Below, piece by piece: positions 145 through 23,104 of a stretch of 57,271 nucleotides of DNA. A program made the translations under genes and the position numbers. The notes below the pieces were generated by a model that was not told where the DNA came from, ran no database searches, and saw nothing but the letters and a program-made list of their open reading frames with translations. The stretch's first letter is position 1, and each line of letters begins with the position of its first letter. The stretch comes from an uncultured Clostridia bacterium (GTDB lineage Bacteria > Bacillota > Clostridia > TANB77 > CAG-508): NCBI GenBank assembly GCA_944386175.1, contig CALXAB010000007.1:1-57271 (forward strand), in the 5' to 3' direction.

Positions 145-465
145 ATAGGGGACGTTCCTTCAATCCCTAAAATTCGGGAAAATGGGGACGGACCTGCCTT
201 TAGCTTTAAGGGGACATCATCATAAAATATATGATTTTTCGGTTCAATACATAATTTAAAAAATTCTAAATTAATTTTTTGGCACCCTTTCACTTAGTCC
301 GAGCTAAAGCTCGACGTGAACATTTTCCAAAAAATTAATAAAGAATTTCTAAAATTATTTCAATCACATTCAAAATCACATATTTTATGATGATGTCCCC
401 TTAAAGCTAAAGGCAGGTCCGTCCCCATTTTCCCGAATTTTAGGGATTGAAGGAACGTCCCCTAT
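145..465. repeat. Fold-back element A: 94-bp inverted arms around a 133-nt core
   Basis: Arms 145-238 and 372-465 are reverse complements with one mismatch near their inner ends. The outer ~50 bp of each arm carry the motif GGGGACGTTCCTTCAATCCC and GGGGACGGACCT; the inner part carries TTTAAGGGGACATCATC. The core (239-371) is itself an imperfect hairpin with GAGC-taaa-GCTC at its apex (about 310). The core recurs at 7734-7865 in the opposite orientation with different arms. The right arm supplies the TAG stop of the EndoQ gene (464-462). No coding capacity is seen. This also accounts for the stretch between the spoIIM-like start and the EndoQ gene. Confidence 0.85.
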
Positions 466-1649
466 GAAACTGTTCCATAATTTCCTCCACCACCTGAGTG
501 TACTTCCATCTTTCCTTCTCTTGCTCTTACTATATTTTTAGCTATTTTTTCTCCAACAACACCTTCTATATCATCTTGTGTTAATTTATGCAAAATATTC
601 ATTTCTGTTTGAAAATTATTTAGCAATTTTTCCACTGTTTTTCCACCTACTCCTGGTATAAATCCTAATGGTATCTGGTATATGTATGGAGGTCTATTTT
701 TAGGGCTTTTGGTTTCTTTTTTATCTTTTATCAGCTCTATTCTATCAAAAACTCCAAAAGTAACATTCTTTCCTCCACATATAGGACAAAATTCCACTGG
801 TTCTTTTGTTTCTATTGTTTTTTCACAATCGTCGCAATAAGTTCTATGATATTTTCCAAGTTTTGGATCTAGCCCATAATTAGCTAAAATTTTTCTTCCA
901 TCTTCATTTTTCAATGCTTTTACTACTTCTTTAAATGATATATCTTCTACTTGCATTTTATTATATTCTCTTGCTATTTTAGGTAAAGAATGTGCATCAG
1001 AATTAGTTACAAATGTTTTATTTTCTAGTTCTGATATTGTGTCTGCTAAAAATGTATCTGAACTCAAACCTAGTTCGACAGCAAATATTTTATTATATTT
1101 TTCTTTAAATATATTTTCTAACCTATCTGTACAATTCCCATAATAACTTTTATGTGGTGTAAATATATGTGCTGGAATCAAAATCCCATTATATTTTTCT
1201 ACAATATCAATTAATTCGTATCCTGATAAATTTGATCTTTGTGTACTTAGAGTTATATTTTTTATATGTTTGCTCATTTCCATAGAAAATCCTTTTATGT
1301 CTTCTAAATGTGGGAAAAAACAAACATTATGAGCACTACCACATTTACCATTTCTTCCTTTTTCTGATGTTTCTACTTCACTTCCTAATAAAATGCAAAC
1401 TTTATCTTTATAAATTATTCCTCCATCTTTTAATTCGTACGCTTCCCCTGTTTTTAAGAATTTTTCTATATCTTCTATTACATAAGGTGAAGCACAATCT
1501 ATTATTCCTACTACATTTATTCCTTTTCTTTCTTCACATTCTCTTGCTATATTAGCAAAATTTAGACTTCTTGCTGCTGTTATTTTTATTGGTTTTCCAT
1601 TTTCACTTCTTCCTATGTGTACATGTAAATCTGCAAATATTTCGTACAT
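462..1649 (-). CDS. Endonuclease Q family protein (PHP domain, zinc ribbon, HhH)
   Basis: The 395-aa protein has the PHP metal-site motifs DLHVH (7-11), HN (107-108), PAH and H166, and SDAH (217-220), then a zinc ribbon (C272, C275, C288, C291), then a helix-hairpin-helix segment (IPGVGGKTVEKLL, about 331-343) and a Gly-rich tail. This order matches the TIGR00375/EndoQ family, DNA endonucleases that in characterised members nick 5' of deaminated bases and other lesions. The start has a clear binding site (AAAAGGAGAAAA). The gene lies 15 nt after the 260-aa ORF, so the two are probably co-transcribed. Its TAG stop lies inside the arm of fold-back element A, so the last residues may have been altered by that insertion. 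Family assignment is firm; substrate is inferred. Confidence 0.85.
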   Translation of the reverse strand: MYEIFADLHVHIGRSENGKPIKITAARSLNFANIARECEERKGINVVGIIDCASPYVIEDIEKFLKTGEAYELKDGGIIYKDKVCILLGSEVETSEKGRNGKCGSAHNVCFFPHLEDIKGFSMEMSKHIKNITLSTQRSNLSGYELIDIVEKYNGILIPAHIFTPHKSYYGNCTDRLENIFKEKYNKIFAVELGLSSDTFLADTISELENKTFVTNSDAHSLPKIAREYNKMQVEDISFKEVVKALKNEDGRKILANYGLDPKLGKYHRTYCDDCEKTIETKEPVEFCPICGGKNVTFGVFDRIELIKDKKETKSPKNRPPYIYQIPLGFIPGVGGKTVEKLLNNFQTEMNILHKLTQDDIEGVVGEKIAKNIVRAREGKMEVHSGGGGNYGTVS

Positions 1650-1664
1650 TTTTTCTCCTTTTCC

Positions 1665-2447
1665 CTAATTTTGTAATTCTTCCATATTTTTTAATATTTT
1701 TTTTGTTGTTTCTGGACTGAATAGTGGTCTATTAGGATTATCTATATTTTCAAATATTCCTTCTGCTATATCATTCATATATTGTTTTAATAATTTATCT
1801 ACTTTTGGTTCATATTCATTAATAATATTTTCTATAAATTGAGTTACTGTTTCTGTTTCATTATGTATTTTTACAAGTCGCTTTATTGATGACATATTTA
1901 CTAAGTCATTCATTTGAATTTTTTCCATGAAGTTTATAAATTCTATGAAAGTTTCTAAATATCTATTATACTCATCTTTTAAGTTTCTATGTTCTAATAA
2001 TACTAATGCTTCATCTGGCTTAAAACCTATTCTTTCTGGTCTGTCTAAAAGCATTCCTCCAAACTGATCTATTAATTCTAATATATCACTTTCTCTTTCT
2101 CTTGGATTGCTTCCACTATATCTATTTATTTCTTCACAAATTTTACAAAATCTTTTTCCAAATCCTAATTCTCTTAAATATTCTGCACCTTCCTTTGCAT
2201 AGGAATGTACTTTTTCTATATCTTGTGCATTATTTATTTTTTTACAATTACATAATAATGACACTGTTAATAGTAAATTTTTATCTACTTCTATTTTTGC
2301 ATAATTTAAAAATAGCCTTAATAATTCGGTTTTAAATATAACTGATTTATCAAAATATATTTTTGTTTTTTTAGATAAATAATACACTATTTCCATTTTT
2401 GCCCCTAAATTTTTTTCATCTAAAATATATTCTGCAAAGGTTTCCAT
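1665..2447 (-). CDS. Hypothetical protein, possibly degenerate HD-superfamily
   Basis: 260 aa, start supported by AAAGGAGGAAGAT just upstream. It is soluble, largely helical and acidic, with no signal peptide or membrane segment. The middle (GAEYLRELGFGKRFCKICEE, then DQFGGMLLDRPERIGF at about 127-142) resembles the helical layout of HD-GYP domains, but the metal-binding HD pair and GYP motif are absent, so catalytic activity is not supported. It sits immediately upstream of the EndoQ-family gene, which hints at a shared transcript rather than at a function. I do not recognise a named family. Confidence 0.6.
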   Translation of the reverse strand: METFAEYILDEKNLGAKMEIVYYLSKKTKIYFDKSVIFKTELLRLFLNYAKIEVDKNLLLTVSLLCNCKKINNAQDIEKVHSYAKEGAEYLRELGFGKRFCKICEEINRYSGSNPRERESDILELIDQFGGMLLDRPERIGFKPDEALVLLEHRNLKDEYNRYLETFIEFINFMEKIQMNDLVNMSSIKRLVKIHNETETVTQFIENIINEYEPKVDKLLKQYMNDIAEGIFENIDNPNRPLFSPETTKKILKNMEELQN

Positions 2448-2676
2448 ATCTTCCTCCTTTGTTATGTTTGTAACTACGTTTTATGAAAATTAATATTTTT
2501 AATATTATTTTTACCTTTATAGTGATATGCATACAATTTTATTATAAATTAAAAAACTCTTTTTTTCAATGTTTTTTGTTTATGTCATATAAATGTAATA
2601 AATTTATTTTGTAAAATCATTTACATTCTAAATATTTTTTCATACTATAATTTTTTCTAGTTATCTTAATTATATT

Positions 2677-3111
2677 TTATAATTCTTTTATAGCTTGTCT
2701 TGCTAATTCATCACATCTATTATTAAATTCATTATCACTATGCCCTTTTACTTTTATAAAATTTACTTTATGTACTTTAGTTAATTTATATAATTCTTCC
2801 CATAACTCTTTGTTTTTTACTGGTTCTTTATTTGCTGTTTTCCAATTATTCTTTTGCCAGTTATATATCCAACCTTGATTAAAACAATTAACAACATATG
2901 CACTGTCGCTATATAAGTCGACTTCACATGGATATTTTATCATTTTTAGTCCTTCTATTACTGCTGTAATTTCCATTATATTATTAGTTGTATCCTTTTT
3001 TCCTCCTGATATTTCTTTTTTATTATCTTTGTACATAAGGATTGCTCCCCAACCTCCTGGACCTGGGTTTCCTGAACATGCTCCATCTGTGTATATTGTT
3101 ACTTTTTCCAT
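2677..3111 (-). CDS. rnhA: Ribonuclease HI
   Basis: The 144-aa protein is the normal length for bacterial RNase HI and starts with the hallmark [15 protein letters not shown]. The four catalytic carboxylates are visible: D9, E47, D69 and D134, and the conserved H124 is in VKGHSDN. It hydrolyses the RNA strand of RNA-DNA hybrids, removing primers and R-loops, in the cytoplasm. It is a single gene between a 229-nt AT-rich gap and the divergent tmcAL. The start is preceded by AAAGGATGTG, a moderate binding site. Confidence 0.95.
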
Positions 3112-3243
3112 TTTTTATCACATCCTTTCTTCGTGTACAAATTTATATAATTCTATATTGTAAAAATCATAAAAATATTCTATAATTGATTATATCATTT
3201 ATTTGTAAAAAAAGTAAATATTAAAATGTTAAAAATATATTTA

Positions 3244-3270
3244 CCAATTTTGGACACGTCCCCAAATTGG
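3244..3270 (+). repeat. 27-nt palindromic repeat, copy 1
   Basis: CCAATTTTGG-acacgtc-CCCAAATTGG forms a short hairpin just upstream of tmcAL. Near-identical copies lie at 28847-28873 (one base different) and, more diverged, at 23961-23987. All three are intergenic. Confidence 0.7.
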
Positions 3271-3316
3271 AAAATTGCCTTTTATGGGCAAATGTTTAAA
3301 AGGAGGGAATCTAATA

Positions 3317-4549
3317 ATGGGAAAAGTTTTAGGTATTGTTGCTGAATACAATCCTTTTCATAATGGTCATTTATACCATTTAGAAGAATCTAAAAAGGCT
3401 ACTGGAGCTAATTACACAGTTGCTATTATGTCTGGTAATTTTACCCAACGTGGTGATACTTCTATTATTGATAAATGGTCTAAAACTAAAATTGCTTTAA
3501 GCAATGGTATTGATATTGTCATTGAATTACCTTTATTGTATTCTATTTCTAGTGCTGAAAATTTTGCTGAGGGTGCTATTAAAATATTAGATTCTTTAAA
3601 AGTTGTTGATTATATTTCATTTGGTGCTGAAACTTCTAATATTAAAATTTTAGATAAAATTGCTGATGTTTTATATAATGAACCTAAAGAATATAAAGCC
3701 CTTTTGGCTCATGAGTTAAGTAAAGGTATATCTTACCCTAAAGCTCGTGATAATGCTTTAATGATGTATTTAAATAATATTAGACAACTTTCTAATGTAG
3801 TTTCTTCTCCTAATAATATTCTAGGCATTGAGTACTTAAAAGCTTTAAAGAAATTTAATAGCAATATTCTTCCTATTGCTATTCCTAGGTTTTCTTCAGA
3901 ATATAATGATACTTCTTTTTCTGGAAACATTGCTAGTGCTACTGCTATTAGAAATATTATAAAAAATAAGGGATTTGATATTTTACAAAAATTATTACCT
4001 AGTAGCAGTTATTCTATTTTGATGGATAATATAAAAGTTGGACATATTGTTCCTGATATTACAGTTTTTGAAAAAGAGATAATATACAATTTAAGAAAAA
4101 TGAATATCAGTGAAATTAGTGAATTAGCTGATGTATCTGAAGGTTTAGAATTTGCAATAAAAAATGCTGCAAATTCTTGTAATAGTATTGTTGAGTTTTT
4201 AAATATTATTAAGTCTAAAAGATATACTACTACTAGATTACAACGTATTTTATTATATTCTTTATTGGGTATTACAAAAAGAGATATTTCTCTTTCTAAA
4301 AAATGTTTGCCTTATATTAGAGTTTTAGGTTTTAATGAACGTGGTAAATACTTAATCTCAGAAGTCGCAAAGGCTAATCCTAAACTTAATATTGTTACTT
4401 CTGTTAAGAAGTTTTCTGATAATAATTCGAATAAAAATTTGAAACTTATGCTTGATAAAGATATTTGGGCTACTAATGTTTATTCTATTGGCTATGAGTA
4501 TGATTCTTGGAGTAATTTGGATTTTACTCAAAAGATGATTATACTTTGA
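3317..4549 (+). CDS. tmcAL: tRNA(Met) cytidine acetate ligase (TmcAL/YlbM family)
   Basis: The protein is 410 aa from the ATG at 3317; an in-frame ATG 42 nt earlier exists, but AAGGAGGG lies 9 nt before 3317, and homologues start with GIVAEYNPFHNGH. The nucleotidyl-transferase HxGH-type motif is H15-N-G-H18, and NFTQRGD and SATAIRNII are also family-typical. The family activates acetate with ATP to form N4-acetylcytidine at the wobble position of elongator tRNA-Met, which secures AUA/AUG decoding. It is monocistronic, divergent from rnhA, and ends at a strong terminator. Confidence 0.93.
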   Translation: MGKVLGIVAEYNPFHNGHLYHLEESKKATGANYTVAIMSGNFTQRGDTSIIDKWSKTKIALSNGIDIVIELPLLYSISSAENFAEGAIKILDSLKVVDYISFGAETSNIKILDKIADVLYNEPKEYKALLAHELSKGISYPKARDNALMMYLNNIRQLSNVVSSPNNILGIEYLKALKKFNSNILPIAIPRFSSEYNDTSFSGNIASATAIRNIIKNKGFDILQKLLPSSSYSILMDNIKVGHIVPDITVFEKEIIYNLRKMNISEISELADVSEGLEFAIKNAANSCNSIVEFLNIIKSKRYTTTRLQRILLYSLLGITKRDISLSKKCLPYIRVLGFNERGKYLISEVAKANPKLNIVTSVKKFSDNNSNKNLKLMLDKDIWATNVYSIGYEYDSWSNLDFTQKMIIL

Positions 4550-4584
4550 CAAAATCATGCAAGTTTGTTGTAACTAAAATTCTG

Positions 4585-4628
4585 AAAAAACACTACATTT
4601 TGCTTTTAGTGGCAATGTAGTGTTTTTT
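4585..4628 (+). terminator. Intrinsic terminator after tmcAL (bidirectional)
   Basis: The stem AAAAAACACTACATT / AATGTAGTGTTTTTT has an inner TTGC/GCAA extension and ends in a T-run on the + strand. The A-run on the 5' side would also serve transcripts from the other strand. Confidence 0.85.
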
Positions 4629-4639
4629 ACTTACTTTTA

Positions 4640-4768
4640 TGTGGTAACTTATACATTGTAGCACAGGACTTTGAGCTAGTCATAAGTCCTAACCCCCTAT
4701 ATGTTTTGACAGCCTATCAAAATATGGGGGCTCTGCGAGGCAATACACCATCTGTTAAAGGATTACAA
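4640..4768. ncRNA. Candidate structured RNA (6S-like?) between tmcAL and ssrA
   Basis: This stretch is markedly more GC-rich and palindromic than its surroundings. It has an AGGACTT/AAGTCCT stem (about 4667-4693), a long hairpin CCCCCTATATGTTTTGA / TCAAAATATGGGGG (about 4694-4731) and a following CTCTGCGAGGC. The long hairpin followed by a CUCUGCG-type element recalls 6S RNA, but no covariance support is available and I cannot fix the strand or ends. It is bounded by terminators on both sides, which suits an independent small RNA. No credible protein-coding frame is seen. Confidence 0.35.
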
Positions 4769-4797
4769 AAAAAAAACCAACTTTTAAAGATTGATTC
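4768..4797 (-). terminator. Probable tmRNA terminator
   Basis: On the - strand a weak stem CAATCTT / AAGTTG is followed by GG and ten T residues, about 45 nt beyond the tmRNA CCA end. Confidence 0.55.
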
Positions 4798-4838
4798 TCT
4801 TTATAATCTGTTTCTATTAGTTCGAACAGAAAAGTCAT

Positions 4839-5192
4839 TGGTGGAGATGAGGAGAGTCGAACTCCTGTCCATAAAACCTTCCATATAAACTTCTACAAGT
4901 TTAGTCTATCTTTTATATTCATTTTATTTTCACCGATAAACAGGTTAAAATAAAATATAGCTTTTAAAATACCCTCTACTTTCAAAGCTAAAGTAGATTT
5001 GTTTCCCACTAGTATGACACCTTATCTAAATAAGTGGGCTATTTAGTAAAGTGTAGCTACACTTAGGCAGCTAATGCTACTTCTTGTTTGTTAGCGTTTA
5101 TTTTTAAATTTTGCTTTTTTTAAGTGGCCAAAGCAACCATCCACTACTTGCTATTTATATTTTGGGTAGTATGTCGAAACCATTACATCCCC
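4839..5192 (-). ncRNA. ssrA: tmRNA (ssrA)
   Basis: The transcript starts GGGGATGTAATGGTTTCGAC (5192 downwards) and ends with a T-arm and acceptor GTTCGACTCTCCTCATCTCCACCA-type sequence with an encoded CCA at 4841-4839, about 354 nt in all. The resume codon GCT at 5095 opens a short frame encoding ANKQEVALAA followed by TAA (5065-5063). tmRNA with SmpB rescues ribosomes stalled on broken mRNAs and tags the product for proteolysis; the tag ends in the protease-recognised ALAA. Short + strand reading frames across this locus are not genes. Confidence 0.96.
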
Positions 5193-5298
5193 ATATACTA
5201 ATTAATTATACTATATCTTTGGCTTTTTATCAATAAAATTTTTATTATTTTATTACACATTTTTACTATTATTTCATATTATATACTGGTGATTTAAT

Positions 5299-5787
5299 AT
5301 GAGTATTGTTCCTACAGATGTTAATTATAGCTATAACATACTAAGAAGTAATTTAACTGAATTAAATTACAAATATCCCTTTTTAAATATTCAAATTGTT
5401 GGAAATAGTGTTATGGATAAAAATATTTATGTTGTGAAACTTGGAAAAGGCCCTAATAAAGTATTTTATTCTGCTTCTATACATGCCAATGAATGGATTA
5501 CAAGTGTTGTTTTAATGAAATTTATTGAAGATTATTCACAAGCATATGTGGATAATAGTTCTCTTTATGGATATAACATAAGGAATTTATTCAATAATTC
5601 TAGTATATACATTATGCCTATGGTAAATCCAGATGGAGTTAATCTAGTAACTGGTAGCTTACCAACTGGTTCTTATGCTTATGAAAATGCATTAAATATT
5701 TCTAAAAATTTTCCAGATATTCCTTTTCCTTCTGGTTGGAAAGCAAATATCAATGGTGTAGATTTAGAAAATTTACAACCAATTTAA
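5299..5787 (+). pseudogene. M14 zinc carboxypeptidase, N-terminal half (interrupted gene)
   Basis: The frame encodes 162 aa matching the first half of an M14 carboxypeptidase: the zinc-binding HANE motif (H62, E65), MVNPDGVNLVTG (108-119) and the conserved GVDL (153-156). Normal homology stops at GVDL; the next codons (ENLQPI, stop) come from inserted DNA. The missing half, starting again with GVDLNLQFPAGW, is found 10.6 kb away at 16379. Joined, the gene would encode about 305 aa. Members of the family cleave peptidoglycan peptides (gamma-D-glutamyl-diamino acid bonds) or other C-terminal residues. The third zinc ligand and catalytic Glu are in the other half, so this piece should be inactive. 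Confidence 0.85.
5755..5766 (+). other. Left junction (attL-like core GGTGTAGATTTA)
   Basis: The 12-bp sequence GGTGTAGATTTA, encoding GVDL of the peptidase, occurs here and again at 16379-16390, exactly where the two gene halves should join. It is either the shared core of attL/attR or a target duplication. Confidence 0.75.
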
Positions 5788-5842
5788 AAATCTTATGATT
5801 AATTAATTGCAAGACTTTACTTATTTTTTACTTTTTTCATTA

Positions 5843-5921
5843 AATAGCAAAAATGAAGATTTTGCTATTTAACAAGGTTAATTTATCTTAGAATGCAAAA
5901 AATACAAAGCATTTTTTGCAT
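5843..5921 (-). terminator. Two hairpins downstream of the 239-aa gene
   Basis: AAATAGCAAAA/TTTTGCTATTT (5843-5872) and ATGCAAAAAAT/ATTTTTTGCAT (5893-5921) both form strong stems; either could terminate the - strand transcript ending at 5946. Confidence 0.5.
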
Positions 5922-5945
5922 ATGTGCGCCAACAGCTTTCTTTCG

Positions 5946-6665
5946 TTAACTCGCAATTTCATTATATTTACCATTTTGATATATGAATAAATCCCCTTCT
6001 TTTGCATCTTGATATAAATCTTTTGGGAATTCTATTTCTTCAATTCCTTCTATACCACCATCTACAACATTGTCTATGTCATATAACCATATTCGTCCAT
6101 CATATTTTTCGCCTACTTCATACGTATGCCCTTCTATTCTTTTACTATTTAAAAATTCACGCTGTTCTTCTAGTTTTTCTTTAATCATTGTATTTATTTC
6201 TTTTCCAACATTTTCTGTCCCTTCATTATCTAATACAAATTCCATATCTTGCTTTCTTAACACACTTCCTAAAGTAACACCTTCTGGTAATTCTTGTTTT
6301 GATTTTGTAATTACTTCATGACTTTTCCCTGGTTCACAAATACATAGATTATAAGAATTAATATCATTAGAATTTACGTCATAAATATAATACATTTCTC
6401 CTTTTTCTTTGGTATTTTCACTATACCTTTGTAATATTTCTGATCTTTCATTTAACATTTTATCCTTGTATCTACCAATTACCTTTTCTCCATGAAGTGT
6501 TAAATCATCTAAATTTATATTATTAAAATTAGAATTCGTATCAGATATGTTGCTACTATTTGTTATAGTATTTTCTAAATAATTTGATAACTCTTTCATA
6601 AAATTTTGTACAAAATTATTCTCCTTTAAATTATTAAATAAGTCATTTACAATGCCTAAATTCAA
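5946..6665 (-). CDS. Hypothetical protein
   Basis: 239 aa starting at a TTG (6665) with AAGGAGTGA upstream. It is acidic and hydrophilic, with no signal peptide or membrane helix. The first ~60 residues are Asn/Ser-rich and probably flexible; the C-terminal ~60 residues (YEVGEKYDGRIWLYDIDN onwards) look like a compact beta-rich domain. It is the last gene of the element and follows the nuclease gene by about 150 nt. I do not recognise the family; the pairing might indicate an immunity or accessory protein for the nuclease, but nothing in the sequence proves it. Confidence 0.6.
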   Translation of the reverse strand: MNLGIVNDLFNNLKENNFVQNFMKELSNYLENTITNSSNISDTNSNFNNINLDDLTLHGEKVIGRYKDKMLNERSEILQRYSENTKEKGEMYYIYDVNSNDINSYNLCICEPGKSHEVITKSKQELPEGVTLGSVLRKQDMEFVLDNEGTENVGKEINTMIKEKLEEQREFLNSKRIEGHTYEVGEKYDGRIWLYDIDNVVDGGIEGIEEIEFPKDLYQDAKEGDLFIYQNGKYNEIAS

Positions 6666-6819
6666 TATGCAATCACTCCTTTTTTATTTTACTTTATTGT
6701 TGGAAATTCTACTATTGACATATAGTAGTAAGAATTAAACTAGAGCGATTATATATTATTTTACATAAATTTGCAATAGATTTTTGCATTTTTTTGAGAT
6801 TTGAGAGTTCCGAAGTTTA

Positions 6820-7581
6820 TTACTCTACATGGCTTTCTCCAGTTGTATAATCAATAACTATTCCTGGTTGCACATTGTAACAATAAACATTAAAATGAAT
6901 TCCTTTGCCTTTGTCTTCAATAGACCAAGCTTCCATTTGTACTCCACTTGCTAATTTATTATCTCCATCAAATATAGGCGTTACTCTGTATAAAACATGA
7001 TTACTTTCATTTTTATCAATGTAGTCTGCTACCCTGTTTTCAAATGGTAACATTCCTTCTGTATTTAAGTATCTTGTTCCTGTAATCAGATTCTTTTTAT
7101 TATCGTTTTCTCCTGCAAGTTGCCAACCTATTAAATGACAGCGATTATACAAATATTTATCTTTAATTACTTCATCATATCTTTTTTGTACCCATCCAGA
7201 AAGATCTTTAATATTTCCTATTTCTCCACGTTTTTCATTTTCTTTTGGCATTATTTCCTTACAAATATTTGCATAAGCTACACCGCTTCTTCCCAAACCA
7301 TCCCATTCACTATATTTCTCAAAACTTTCAGTTGTATAATCTTCTTCTGTAAAATATGGAATATTGTTGTTTATTTCTATATAAGGATTTGATGTGTACT
7401 CTGGAATTGTAGATAAATCAAATGTTGTTTCTGTATTTTGATTTATATTTTCTGTATTTCCTTTATCTAAATCCTGTGTATTTTGAGTTATATCTCCTAT
7501 AGCTATAATACAAATTAATAATATTATTGAACCTATAAATTTCCAAAGTTTTTGATTTTTATTTTTTCCTTTTTTACTCAT
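6820..7581 (-). CDS. Secreted/membrane-anchored DNA/RNA non-specific endonuclease
   Basis: 253 aa with a basic N-terminus and one hydrophobic segment (about 13-29), then a low-complexity Asn/Thr linker, then the catalytic domain. The core motif YNRCHLIGWQLAGENDNKKN (145-164) contains the general-base His149 and the metal-binding Asn region, followed by LITGTRYLN and MLPFENRVADYI. This is the layout of Endonuclease_NS-type secreted DNases of Gram-positive bacteria (EndA/streptodornase-like). The segment may be an uncleaved anchor or signal peptide. In the element it could serve nutrient scavenging, DNA uptake or competition; context does not decide. Start has AGAGGTAATTTT upstream. Confidence 0.85.
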   Translation of the reverse strand: MSKKGKNKNQKLWKFIGSIILLICIIAIGDITQNTQDLDKGNTENINQNTETTFDLSTIPEYTSNPYIEINNNIPYFTEEDYTTESFEKYSEWDGLGRSGVAYANICKEIMPKENEKRGEIGNIKDLSGWVQKRYDEVIKDKYLYNRCHLIGWQLAGENDNKKNLITGTRYLNTEGMLPFENRVADYIDKNESNHVLYRVTPIFDGDNKLASGVQMEAWSIEDKGKGIHFNVYCYNVQPGIVIDYTTGESHVE

Positions 7582-7682
7582 AAAATTACCTCTTTTGTTT
7601 TTATTATTTTTTTAAATACTATCATAAAAGAAAAAATACATCAACTTTTAAAAGAATTTTTATTCATTTAACTAGTTTTATA

Positions 7683-7916
7683 TTACGATTCACAGCCATA
7701 TGGGAGACAGTACACTCATAAATATAGTATTTTGAATGTGATTGGAGTAATTTTAGAAATTCTTTATTAATTTTTTGGGTAATGTTCACGTCGAGCGAAG
7801 CGAGGACTAAGTGAAAGGGCACCAAAAAATTAATTTAGAATTTTTTAAATTATGTATTGAACCGAAAAATACTATATTTATGAGTGTACTGTCTCCCATA
7901 TGGCTGTGAATCGTAA
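7683..7916. repeat. Fold-back element B: 51-bp inverted arms around the same core as A
   Basis: Arms 7683-7733 and 7866-7916 are exact reverse complements (containing GATTCACAGCCATATGGGAG and ACAGTACACTCATAAATATAG). The core 7734-7865 is about 90% identical to the core of element A, in reverse orientation. The arms have no similarity to those of A. The central loop differs in an apex stem (GCGAAGC instead of GAGCtaaaGCTC). It fills the 351-nt gap between the nuclease and the recombinase; nothing else is seen there. Confidence 0.85.
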
Positions 7917-7932
7917 CATTTTTGTATTGCAT

Positions 7933-9581
7933 TTATTCTAAATCTATTATTTCTTCTATTTTTATAAACTCATTTATATTCTGATTAATAGAATTTAGTT
8001 TTGAAAAATTAAAATAAATATAAACATTTTTATCTTTATCAATTTCAATTTTTTTAATTAATCTGTATAAATACATCTTATCTATTTTCTCTGTTTTCAA
8101 AAAATTTTCTATTAATTCATTTAATTCTTTTTCATTTTTTGTTTTATTTTTTGTGTCTGAATTCTGATTAGATAATTTAAGTTTTTGTTCTAATTCTCTT
8201 TTTTGTTTAGTTAAATTTGTTCTATCAAATGTGAGTTTATTTGAGATTCTTACATAGTCTTCTTCGGTGATTATATTTCGTAATTTATCTATATACATCT
8301 TGTCTAAATTATTATTTATATCAAAAATTTGCATATTTACTTGTTCAATTTTCTTCTTAAATCTTTCTTTAATATTAATAGTTTTATTTTGGCATTTTTC
8401 ATAAATACCATAAAGTATTTCTTTACGACTATAAATTTGACAAATCTTTTTTACAATATAAATAATGTGTTCTTCAAATTTATCATAATTAATATTTAAT
8501 GGATAACAATTTCTTTCTTTATAATTACTACAAGTAATATATGGATGTGCTTTTGCATTTCTTTTAGAATTCTTTTTTAATACAATTTGCAGTTTTCTTT
8601 TACAATGATAACAATATAATAATCCTCTTAACAAGTAATCATATTTAAGTTTTTTGTTAGTACCTCTTTTTTCTATAATGCATTGTACTTTTTCAAATGT
8701 ATCTTTATCAATAATGGCTTTGTGTGTATTATTAACTCTTATTTGATTTTTCTTTTCTACTGTCCTTGTTTTTTTTACTTTATATGAAATAACAGATTTT
8801 TTATTTTGTACAGTATTTCCAATATAAACTTCATTTTTTAACATATTACATATTGTTACTTCGTTCCAATTATACTTTGTTTCACTCTCATTTTGCACTA
8901 TACCAGTTTTTCTATAACCTGTTGGAGATACATAATTATTGCTATTTAAAAATCGAACTATTTCACTACTACCATGTTCATTTGCATACATATCAAATAT
9001 AATTCTTACCACGTCTGCTACATTCTGATCTATTACAAGTTTATTTTTTATTGTAGGATGTCTTTTATATCCGATATGCTGGTATGCTACACAGGTACTC
9101 TCCTTGTCTTTGTTTTTCCTTATAAACACTTCTAATCTTTTTAGAAATATCTTTAGCATACATATCGTTCATGATTGCTTTAAAAGGTGTTATATCGTTA
9201 TTTGTACTGTCGACATATGTGTCTATTCCATCTGTTACAGAAACATATCTTATATTGTTTTTCGGAAAATAATCTTCTATGTAAAATCCAGTTTTTATGT
9301 AATCTCTACCAAGTCTTGATAGGTCTTTTGTTATAACCATATCTATGGAATGTTTTTCTATATCTTGTAATAATTCATTAAATCCTGGCCTATCAAATGT
9401 TGTTCCACTTACTCCATCATCGACATATTCGCGTACAAGTGTTAGTCCTTCATCTACTATATACCTTTGTAAAATTTTTCTTTGATTACAGATACTTTCG
9501 CTTTCTTGTTTATCGCCATCTTCTCTTGATAAACGTATATACATTCCGTACTTTAAAGTTTTTGGCTTTTAAATCTAGCAA
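7933..9581 (-). pseudogene. Large serine recombinase, frameshifted
   Basis: The N-terminal resolvase domain is in one frame (from 9544: MYIRLSRED with the catalytic Ser, DDGVSGTTFDRPGF, TKDLSRLGRDYI) and the recombinase, zinc-ribbon (CYHC...C) and coiled-coil C-terminal domains in another (to 7933). The frames would join as PAY-GYKRHPT if one base were removed near 9072 (TATCGGATAT instead of TATGGATAT). A second extra C may exist near the start: a TTG at 9581 with an AGGAGG site opens KNFKV, which would continue as GMYIRL if one base were removed around 9549. The family (TndX/TnpX-like) integrates elements at short att cores. As read, the protein is broken. Confidence 0.85.
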
Positions 9582-21521: not shown

Positions 21522-21716
21522 CTTTAATTCATAATAATAAGATACGGGGAATTATATATTATATTTTAAGCGGGTTTCGTGGGGACCGACACGATACATA
21601 CTCTTATCAAATCAGCGACTGTCCCGTAGGAGCTGATTTTATTAGAGTATGTAAAGTGTTGGGATAGCGAAAAATATAATATATAATTCCCCGTATCTTA
21701 TTATTATGAATTAAAG
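21522..21716. repeat. Fold-back element C: 46-bp perfect arms around a structured 103-nt core
   Basis: Arms 21522-21567 and 21671-21716 are exact reverse complements and include GATACGGGGAATTATATATT. The core 21568-21670 has nested stems: CATACTCT/AGAGTATG, AAATCAGC/GCTGATTT and TCGTG/CACGA, with GTCCCGTAGGA at the apex. The core is unrelated to that of elements A and B and is more GC-rich than the surroundings. The right arm begins at the nucleotide after the rseP TGA stop. Confidence 0.85.
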
Positions 21717-22986: not shown

Positions 22987-23104
22987 GGGACGTTCCTTTA
23001 ATCCCTAAAATTGGGGACTAGGGGACGGACCTTAAAAGATATCCCCTAAATCCCTTCAAGGTCCGTCCCCTAGTCCCCAATTTTAGGGATTAAAGGAACG
23101 TCCC
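22987..23104. repeat. Fold-back element D: 47-bp perfect palindrome with a 24-nt loop
   Basis: Arms 22987-23033 and 23058-23104 are perfect complements, with GGGACGTTCCTTTAATCCC and GGGGACGGACCTT motifs. They match the outer arms of element A at most positions, but the loop is only 24 nt. The right arm encodes the last residues and stop of CdsA. Confidence 0.85.

Follow-up and report, generated by a model that had tools for sequence, protein, structure and literature searches.

Fold-back elements in the window

The DNA analyzed here (the window; 57,271 nt, positions 1 to 57,271 of contig CALXAB010000007.1 in GenBank assembly GCA_944386175.1, from an uncultured Clostridia bacterium) contains two fold-back elements, A (145-465) and B (7683-7916), in each of which a core of about 130 nt (133 nt in A) is enclosed by long inverted arms (Table 1), along with two further long perfect palindromes, 21522-21716 (denoted P3) and 22987-23104. 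Folded as single-stranded DNA, A and B reach z values of -28 and -18, respectively, against shuffled sequence, and both are real, far beyond chance. An earlier reading of the sequence alone (the sequence-only reading) had proposed that the two elements share a core in opposite orientations and that the arms are self-complementary within each of them; both points were borne out, with 92% identity between the cores, a single mismatch in the 94-bp arms of A, and none in the 51-bp arms of B. The arms were also said to have nothing in common between A and B, which holds for the outer arms but not for the innermost ~14 nt, which are alike (225-238 and 7866-7879). The site of B is also occupied, with flanks 94-97% identical, in G055 (record ERR4968580_bin.12), the closest relative used in this work, whose shared flanks are mostly 94-99% identical to those of the genome that contains the window (hereafter, the home genome).

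Family size, distribution, and core structure

A 16-nt pattern from the core (at most 2 mismatches) was matched 43 times in the home genome, 25 times in genome G001, and 12 times in G008, compared with 3, 1, and 2 matches of the respective backward-pattern controls. With one of the 43 matches judged to be a chance occurrence, the home genome holds ~42 copies of the core; 41 home-genome elements were analyzed for arms and tips. DNA matches at E <= 0.001 were obtained in 33 of 55 genomes, the home genome included, many of those beyond the close relatives being short and weak. At least 109 genome-contig stretches contain the 16-nt pattern and at least 42 loci hold the core by BLAST; among the matches listed, the BLAST-confirmed cores come from uncultured Clostridia, Clostridium sp., Clostridiales, or Eubacteriales. 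Viral contigs yielded 33 stretches matching the pattern, none of which holds the core by BLAST.

The core folds into an imperfect hairpin. In an alignment of 20 diverse cores (out of 24 elements, with the broken cores of L119, L132, L141, and L314 excluded) to which the structure of A was applied, 28 of the 39 stem pairs have changed at both positions, 86% of the cells can pair, compared with 71% in shuffled alignments, and the covariation score is 0.324, against 0.097 when shuffled and at most 0.086 when slid. Good conservation is also seen in the unpaired stretches at either end of the core, approximately TCGGYTCAATAC and CCAATCACATTC. Divergence is lower in the core than in the flanks in 7 of 9 comparisons of this core (core 1) and in 9 of 10 comparisons of the core of P3 (see below), so that change is usually slower in the core than around it. 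The core presumably carries a needed function; we infer that it is under constraint.

The strong covariation of the core stem and the conserved unpaired motifs, together with a slight excess of G.T over A.C mismatches in the arms, are what would be expected if the hairpins were functional RNAs, in which case mirrored changes in the arms would be compensatory mutations under RNA-level selection. We consider this explanation improbable. G.U pairs make up only 10 of the 751 core-pair cells; 102 cells do not pair, and the variable apex helix accounts for 37 of them. The orientation of the core varies between species, and the outer arms vary widely between loci. A search of the whole window against Rfam at the gathering threshold gave no match for A or B, and when A and P3 were searched under relaxed settings, every match, mostly to microRNA models, fell short of the gathering score. 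Given the few G.U cells despite changes on both sides of the stem, and a core less diverged than its flanks, a hairpin that is corrected as DNA and recognized by a protein suits the data better than an RNA selected via G.U intermediates. Because the core stem covaries so strongly here with so few G.U intermediates, these elements also carry a warning that stem covariation need not imply RNA function.

Two classes of arms and their insertion

The 41 home-genome elements fall into two classes, 14 with A-type tips and 27 with the B-type inner arm (...ATAAATATAGTATTTT or close), several of the latter with decayed tips; a split by text match, which was used for the arm divergences given below, assigned 12 elements to A and 29 to B. 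Accordingly, copies that share arms as well as core exist, and the expectation of the sequence-only reading that arms would always be externally unrelated failed. Its more general proposition, a conserved middle with locus-specific ends, survives in that the core is conserved and the arms differ by locus while staying self-complementary, but not in that the arms would be generally unrelated, because the tips recur. With distinct recurring tips, one REP-like (repetitive extragenic palindromic) and the other a short terminal repeat, the contrast between the arms of A and B is mainly a subfamily difference.

The A tip (GGGGACGTTCCTNNAATCCC, 1 mismatch allowed) was found 128 times in the home genome, 113 times in G001, and 81 times in G008, with no match of the backward control. 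A tips form inverted pairs around many different interiors, short core-less loops included, and thus share with REPINs (hairpin-forming REP doublets) the inverted REP pair that makes a hairpin and occurs in multiple copies. At locus L069 in G001, 60-nt inverted repeats matching A surround a Y1_Tnp gene, the product of which scores above the Pfam Y1_Tnp cut-off and has as its best NCBIfam match, below the cut-off, REP_Tyr_transpos, the REP-associated tyrosine transposase (RAYT); at L073 in the home genome, an A-type repeat lies beside a Y1_Tnp gene that is interrupted by the contig end. The repeats at these loci measure 50-60 nt. Because the A repeat brackets a RAYT-like gene, the outer arms of the A type look like REPs of a RAYT system. 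The GTAG/GTGG tetranucleotide is absent at the foot of the A-type REP, the head of which reads GGGGACG, and the spacer is not the short, weakly conserved one of REPINs, the ~130-nt core being conserved, though some A-type palindromes have short spacers. Two A-tip palindromes of the home genome, L085 (G000:C1:42455-42953, ~500 nt) and L088 (G000:C6:37869-38690, ~820 nt), have complex interiors with further inverted repeats.

The B tip (GTTACRATTCACAGC, 2 mismatches allowed) was matched 40 times in the home genome, 18 times in G001, and 10 times in G008, compared with 2, 1, and 3 control matches, and a variant of it is present in 30 of 58 genomes of the same genus. Of 45 B-tip elements, 20 are flanked by a 4-bp target-site duplication (TSD), against a mean of 1.6 after shuffling; of the 8 elements whose tips are best, 6 have it. 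These 45 elements were deduplicated by flank, a few of them are orthologous, and a few of the TSDs are runs of A or T. For one of these elements, L075 (TSD CTAG), the empty site was identified in G055, which reads ATTACTAGTTTAAA and lacks both the element and a palindrome. The 4-bp TSDs and this empty site indicate that B-type elements arrive by ordinary insertion, with no prior palindrome and no copying of flanks. A search for an autonomous B-type element (ends GTTACAATTCACAG) revealed no gene-sized tip pair among the positions listed, and among 14 loci with Y1_Tnp genes, some interrupted by contig ends, a B tip occurs near the gene only at L073, as a whole hairpin beside it.

The sequence-only reading had named empty sites with a normal target duplication and no palindrome as evidence against it, and the B-type elements provide both; its suggestion that insertion makes an inverted copy of the flanking DNA is not supported. 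Some arms, for example those of L117 and L122, look unlike either tip, as arms newly made from flanking DNA would, but both kinds of tip are found at many loci, the B-type elements have TSDs and a palindrome-free empty site, and the tip of P3 is common to four species at one site. The recurrence of tips, the TSDs, and the clean empty site argue that arms are not copied from flanks, and we regard an origin of this kind as extremely improbable.

Mirrored substitutions at orthologous sites

Within home-genome elements, the two arms mismatch at ~0.8% of positions in the A group and ~1.8% in the B group and are identical in 21 of 41 elements; between copies, the median arm divergence is 15% and 18%, respectively. 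At nine orthologous core-1 sites (five shared by the home genome and G055, four by G001 and G008), 496 arm columns contain 17 mirrored substitutions, in which both arms have changed in a complementary manner, 18 single-arm substitutions, and one other, where ~0.1 mirrored changes would be expected by chance. At element B, three of the four arm substitutions relative to G055 are mirrored. When core-1 and P3 elements are taken together, mirrored substitutions are present at 11 of 16 sites. These counts exclude L075/L298 (neighboring, different elements), L112/L142 (unalignable arms), the partial G055 cores L313 and L314, and five sites with both flanks matched between the home genome and G001 (L013, L017, L028, L029, and L082); L074/L300, with 75-77% identical flanks, was left out of the totals for arms and for core orientation alike. 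Relative to the home-genome element in L022/L023, L234/L303 (G055:C81) has three transitions clustered within five nucleotides, in one arm only.

The three mirrored changes at B and the three in the G001/G008 pairs were compared, within a context of 10-11 nt, with all other known elements, none of which has either state; copying in place is therefore likelier there than copying from another locus. Judging by these sequence contexts, in-place copying between arms is supported at B and at three other sites (L115, L116, and L124).

A second core with the same behavior

P3 is a third fold-back of the same design, with 46-bp perfect arms around a 103-nt core that gives no convincing alignment to core 1. 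Its core was detected in 23 places in 4 of the 8 genomes searched, including 2 home-genome copies at E <= 1e-6. Core identity in the 22 copies that were analyzed for arms ranges from 77 to 100%; the copies nearly agree in the innermost ~15 nt of the arms, and their outer arms mostly differ between loci; within each copy, the arms span 25-100 bp with 0-5 mismatches and at most one gap. The same core sits in A-type REP arms (L389), in another repeat of the GGGGAC type (L395), and in other arms. At the window site, the tip and the core are common to four species, the arms of the home genome and G055 are equal except for one change, and in G001 and G008 the middles of the arms are rewritten in parallel on both sides. 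Across 459 columns (10 comparisons at 7 sites, four of the ten concerning one site and overlapping), there are 42 mirrored substitutions, 17 single-arm substitutions, 4 shared mismatches, and 1 other. A second, unrelated core thus shows the same behavior as core 1.

Core inversion and differing interiors

Of the 11 distinct core-1 sites that were matched by both flanks (excluding L075/L298 and L074/L300), 4 have the core in a different orientation in different species; the same applies to the P3 core at 4 of 7 sites, including L391/L392, for which the flank evidence is modest. The cleanest inversions, with the same arms on either side, are L124/L138 (97% identical flanks), L377/L378, and L383/L384. 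At L383/L384, the core is inverted while the mismatched outer arms remain with their own flanks, a pattern that exchange within the matching inner arm would give.

Eleven REP-tipped sites were traced in the home genome and at least one other genome, with the interior different at nine and the same at two, namely L010 and L091, each compared with G055, which at L010 has an additional outer layer. The set excludes L003, L085, L089, and L100 (which correspond to a different type of palindrome, to a remnant, or to no palindrome in the second genome) and L027 (B-type in the home genome). At the site of A in the window, the home genome has core 1, and G001 and G008 have a "core 2", which aligns to core 1 at the same conserved motifs, within other inner arms; L007 and L014 likewise combine core 1 in the home genome with core 2 in G001 or G008, and at L008 core 1 corresponds to a short interior in G001. 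Three genomes have three different interiors at L011, where G055 shares the outermost tip only; L016 and L093 each have one of two REPs in common with G055; L094 differs from its G001 counterpart by a nested second REP type; and L099 is a 50-nt minimal palindrome in the home genome and G055, with the center inverted between them, and a full core element in G001.

The proposal that the core enters pre-existing palindromes is therefore possible at REP-tipped sites, where the same outer palindrome encloses interiors that differ between species, but does not apply to the B-type element L075, whose empty site has no palindrome. The notion that core-less palindromes are always ancestral targets was dropped. 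In G055, L021 consists of both arms without a core, L020 of one arm, and L026 of the left arm followed by the beginning of the core, and because these resemble remnants of deletions, some core-less palindromes are probably products of decay. At L311 (G055:C2), the left flank of L018 and the right flank of L017 surround one core element, through either rearrangement between copies or an assembly join.

Probable arm-to-arm copying and its alternatives

We consider it likely that the elements are mobile palindromes, REPIN-like and MITE-like (miniature inverted-repeat transposable element), the arms of which are rewritten in concert by copying from arm to arm, a process that can also flip the core. 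Each element would consist of three layers: a tip that identifies the mobilizer, then a long stem, and at its apex the conserved core, itself an imperfect hairpin. The A type would be a REPIN moved in trans by a HUH transposase of the RAYT type, and the B type a MITE-like element with short terminal inverted repeats and a 4-bp duplication, its insertion seen in the TSDs and its transposase postulated. After insertion, the arms may serve as templates for each other, most likely through template switching by the polymerase or through recombination between arms, two processes that would look identical. Such copying would carry changes across and sometimes invert the core, and because changes are copied from arm to arm, arms would drift to locus- and species-specific sequences and yet remain complementary. 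At REP-tipped sites, the entire interior may be exchanged with the interior of a different palindrome, either when shared REPs recombine or through re-insertion.

Several observations weigh against arm-to-arm copying in mobile palindromes. Mirrored changes are concentrated, 14 of the 17 being at 3 of the 9 core-1 sites; L023/L303 and L111/L137 have single-arm changes only, L083/L310 has none, and in the G001/G008 comparisons single-arm changes outnumber mirrored ones 12 to 3. Of the 11 mirrored changes at L010 and L028, 10 have at least one state in another known copy, and gene conversion from copy to copy is possible at these two sites. L013, L017, and L028, three of the four core-1 sites at which orientation differs, are unlike G001 in the arms as well, and the orientation may have changed there by replacement instead of in-place inversion. 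The excess of G.T over A.C among arm mismatches (65 vs 40, p = 0.02; 16 vs 13 in the home genome) leaves room for weak RNA-level selection on the arms. With regard to mobility, the RAYT-like proteins score 66-75 bits where the NCBIfam cut-off is 80, and no transposase was found for the B tips. Finally, the assemblies are metagenomic where the records are named, and long perfect arms are an assembly hazard.

The donor-like states at L010 and L028, and the species-specific interiors at 9 of 11 comparable A-type sites, could also reflect concerted evolution among copies, whereby gene conversion or new transposition replaces a hairpin as a whole, both arms and core, and mirrored differences arrive ready-made. 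As a general account, this is unlikely. B, L115, L116, and L124 have no donor among the known copies, although the genomes are incomplete and unseen donors possible; P3 has only 2 copies in the home genome, and yet its arms at the window site show mirrored differences among species; at L383/L384 and L124/L138, cores are inverted and the outer arms stay with their flanks. Replacement among copies would, moreover, leave unexplained how perfect new arm variants first originate.

Assembly artefacts, that is, collapsed arms or cores joined in the wrong orientation, are suggested by the contigs that frequently end at these repeats, but we regard them as a very improbable source of the patterns. The arms of B (51 bp), those of the flipped cases (36-49 bp), and more generally the arms that carry much of the key evidence (36-55 bp) should be shorter than typical reads, imperfect arms were assembled too, and similar patterns recur in separately named assemblies.

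A bolder reading, which we put forward as tentative and rather doubtful, is that the cores act as apex parasites. As mobile modules, they would insert specifically into the single-stranded tips of existing hairpins and build onion-like nested hairpins, with the arms as a sequence-indifferent, self-repairing handle. What points this way is the presence of core 1 within both A and B tips and of the P3 core in several types of palindrome, symmetrically and with ~15 nearly constant inner nucleotides, as well as A-type REP pairs that sit exactly in the center of another palindrome. Among 39 home-genome pairs of A tips, 5 are centered in this manner, against 0.67 expected; four of the centered pairs have a perfect outward match of 36-40 nt, two of these in one nested locus. 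Should cores target hairpin tips, they would choose their insertion sites in a new way, and, as apex parasites, two unrelated core types could spread through several unrelated palindrome families.

Relation to known systems

Like MITEs, the B-type elements are non-coding and have terminal inverted repeats and a 4-bp target duplication, but between copies they conserve only the ~15-nt tip and the innermost arm, with the core being the most conserved part, and no parent transposase was found.

The A type resembles REPINs and the REP-RAYT system (PMC3116915, PMC6006769) in its inverted REP hairpins, its many copies, and a RAYT gene bracketed by the same repeat; it differs in the conserved ~130-nt core and the long inner arms between the REPs (the GI unit of PMC3116915 spans 71 bp between the outer 16-mers), in lacking a GTAG or GTGG tag, and in interiors that differ at fixed sites, and the B-type tips are not REP-like. 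Compensatory changes have been noted in REPINs (PMC3116915), and RAYT genes flanked by terminal inverted repeats unrelated to GTAG repeats, some of them multi-copy families, have been described (PMC3733652). The end of the A type, CGTCCCC, contains the CGTC of the CGTC-tagged REPs reported in the same article, which, unlike the A type, are presented there with stems of 8-9 bp and no associated transposase.

Template switching is reported to cause arm homogenization and spacer inversion in yeast (PMC8604942), the two kinds of change also seen here; the same article cites homogenization of repeats, both long and short, across many organisms, among them Proteobacteria, and template switching has further been described to create and maintain stems (PMC8794818). 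Homogenization of arms and inversion of spacers are thus already known processes, and the general law is not new. Compared with the yeast cases of that article (PMC8604942), in which the arms measure 7-16 bp and the spacers are short, the elements described here have arms of up to ~110 bp and a spacer of ~100-130 nt and are multi-copy and mobile. The palindromes of nematomorph mitochondria (PMC6649704) likewise have long perfect arms that diverge between species and remain self-identical, and template switching was proposed for them; they lie in coding genes and, in the available text, are not described as mobile or as built on a conserved core.

In the literature searched, we found no description of a modular family that combines conserved cores, interchangeable palindromes, and self-matching arms; searches for nested palindromic REPs in Clostridia or for bacterial foldback elements gave no matching description by title, and the papers found with short pieces of the repeats were unrelated by title.

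Long palindromes are usually considered unstable. The mirrored substitutions and spacer inversions at orthologous sites provide a natural, countable record of the persistence of long palindromes in bacterial chromosomes.

Features and neighboring genes of the window

Table 1. Positions of the fold-back elements and the core-less palindrome in the window
Feature	Positions	Strand	Remarks
Left arm of A	145..238	+	94-bp arm, 1 mismatch; outer ~47 nt (148-194) are a REP-like repeat of the type flanking a RAYT-like gene
Core 1 in A	239..371	+	Imperfect hairpin with conserved unpaired motifs, from pattern matches and stem-pair covariation
Right arm of A	372..465	+	Reverse complement of the left arm
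Left arm of B	7683..7733	+	51-bp perfect arm; tip resembles GTTACRATTCACAGC, the B-type terminal repeat
Core 1 in B	7734..7865	-	Orientation opposite to A; 92% identical to the A core
Right arm of B	7866..7916	+	Compared with G055, three substitutions mirrored in both arms, one unmirrored
Left arm of P3	21522..21567	+	Third fold-back, same design; 46-bp perfect arms
Core of P3	21568..21670	+	Without recognizable similarity to core 1; matched at 23 places, in 4 of the 8 genomes searched
Right arm of P3	21671..21716	+	Four species: arm differences largely mirrored, core inverted in two
Core-less A-type REP palindrome	22987..23104	.	47-bp perfect arms, 24-nt loop

Directly beside B lies a serine-recombinase-like gene (7933-9544), assigned from its translation only and split into overlapping open reading frames (ORFs) at 7933-9159 and 9065-9544. 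P3 lies immediately downstream of a minus-strand rseP-like gene, and the core-less palindrome upstream of that gene overlaps the last bases of a cdsA-like ORF, both gene names being judged from translations. The window also contains a transfer-messenger RNA (tmRNA) gene on the minus strand (4839-5192), with the tag ANKQEVALAA.

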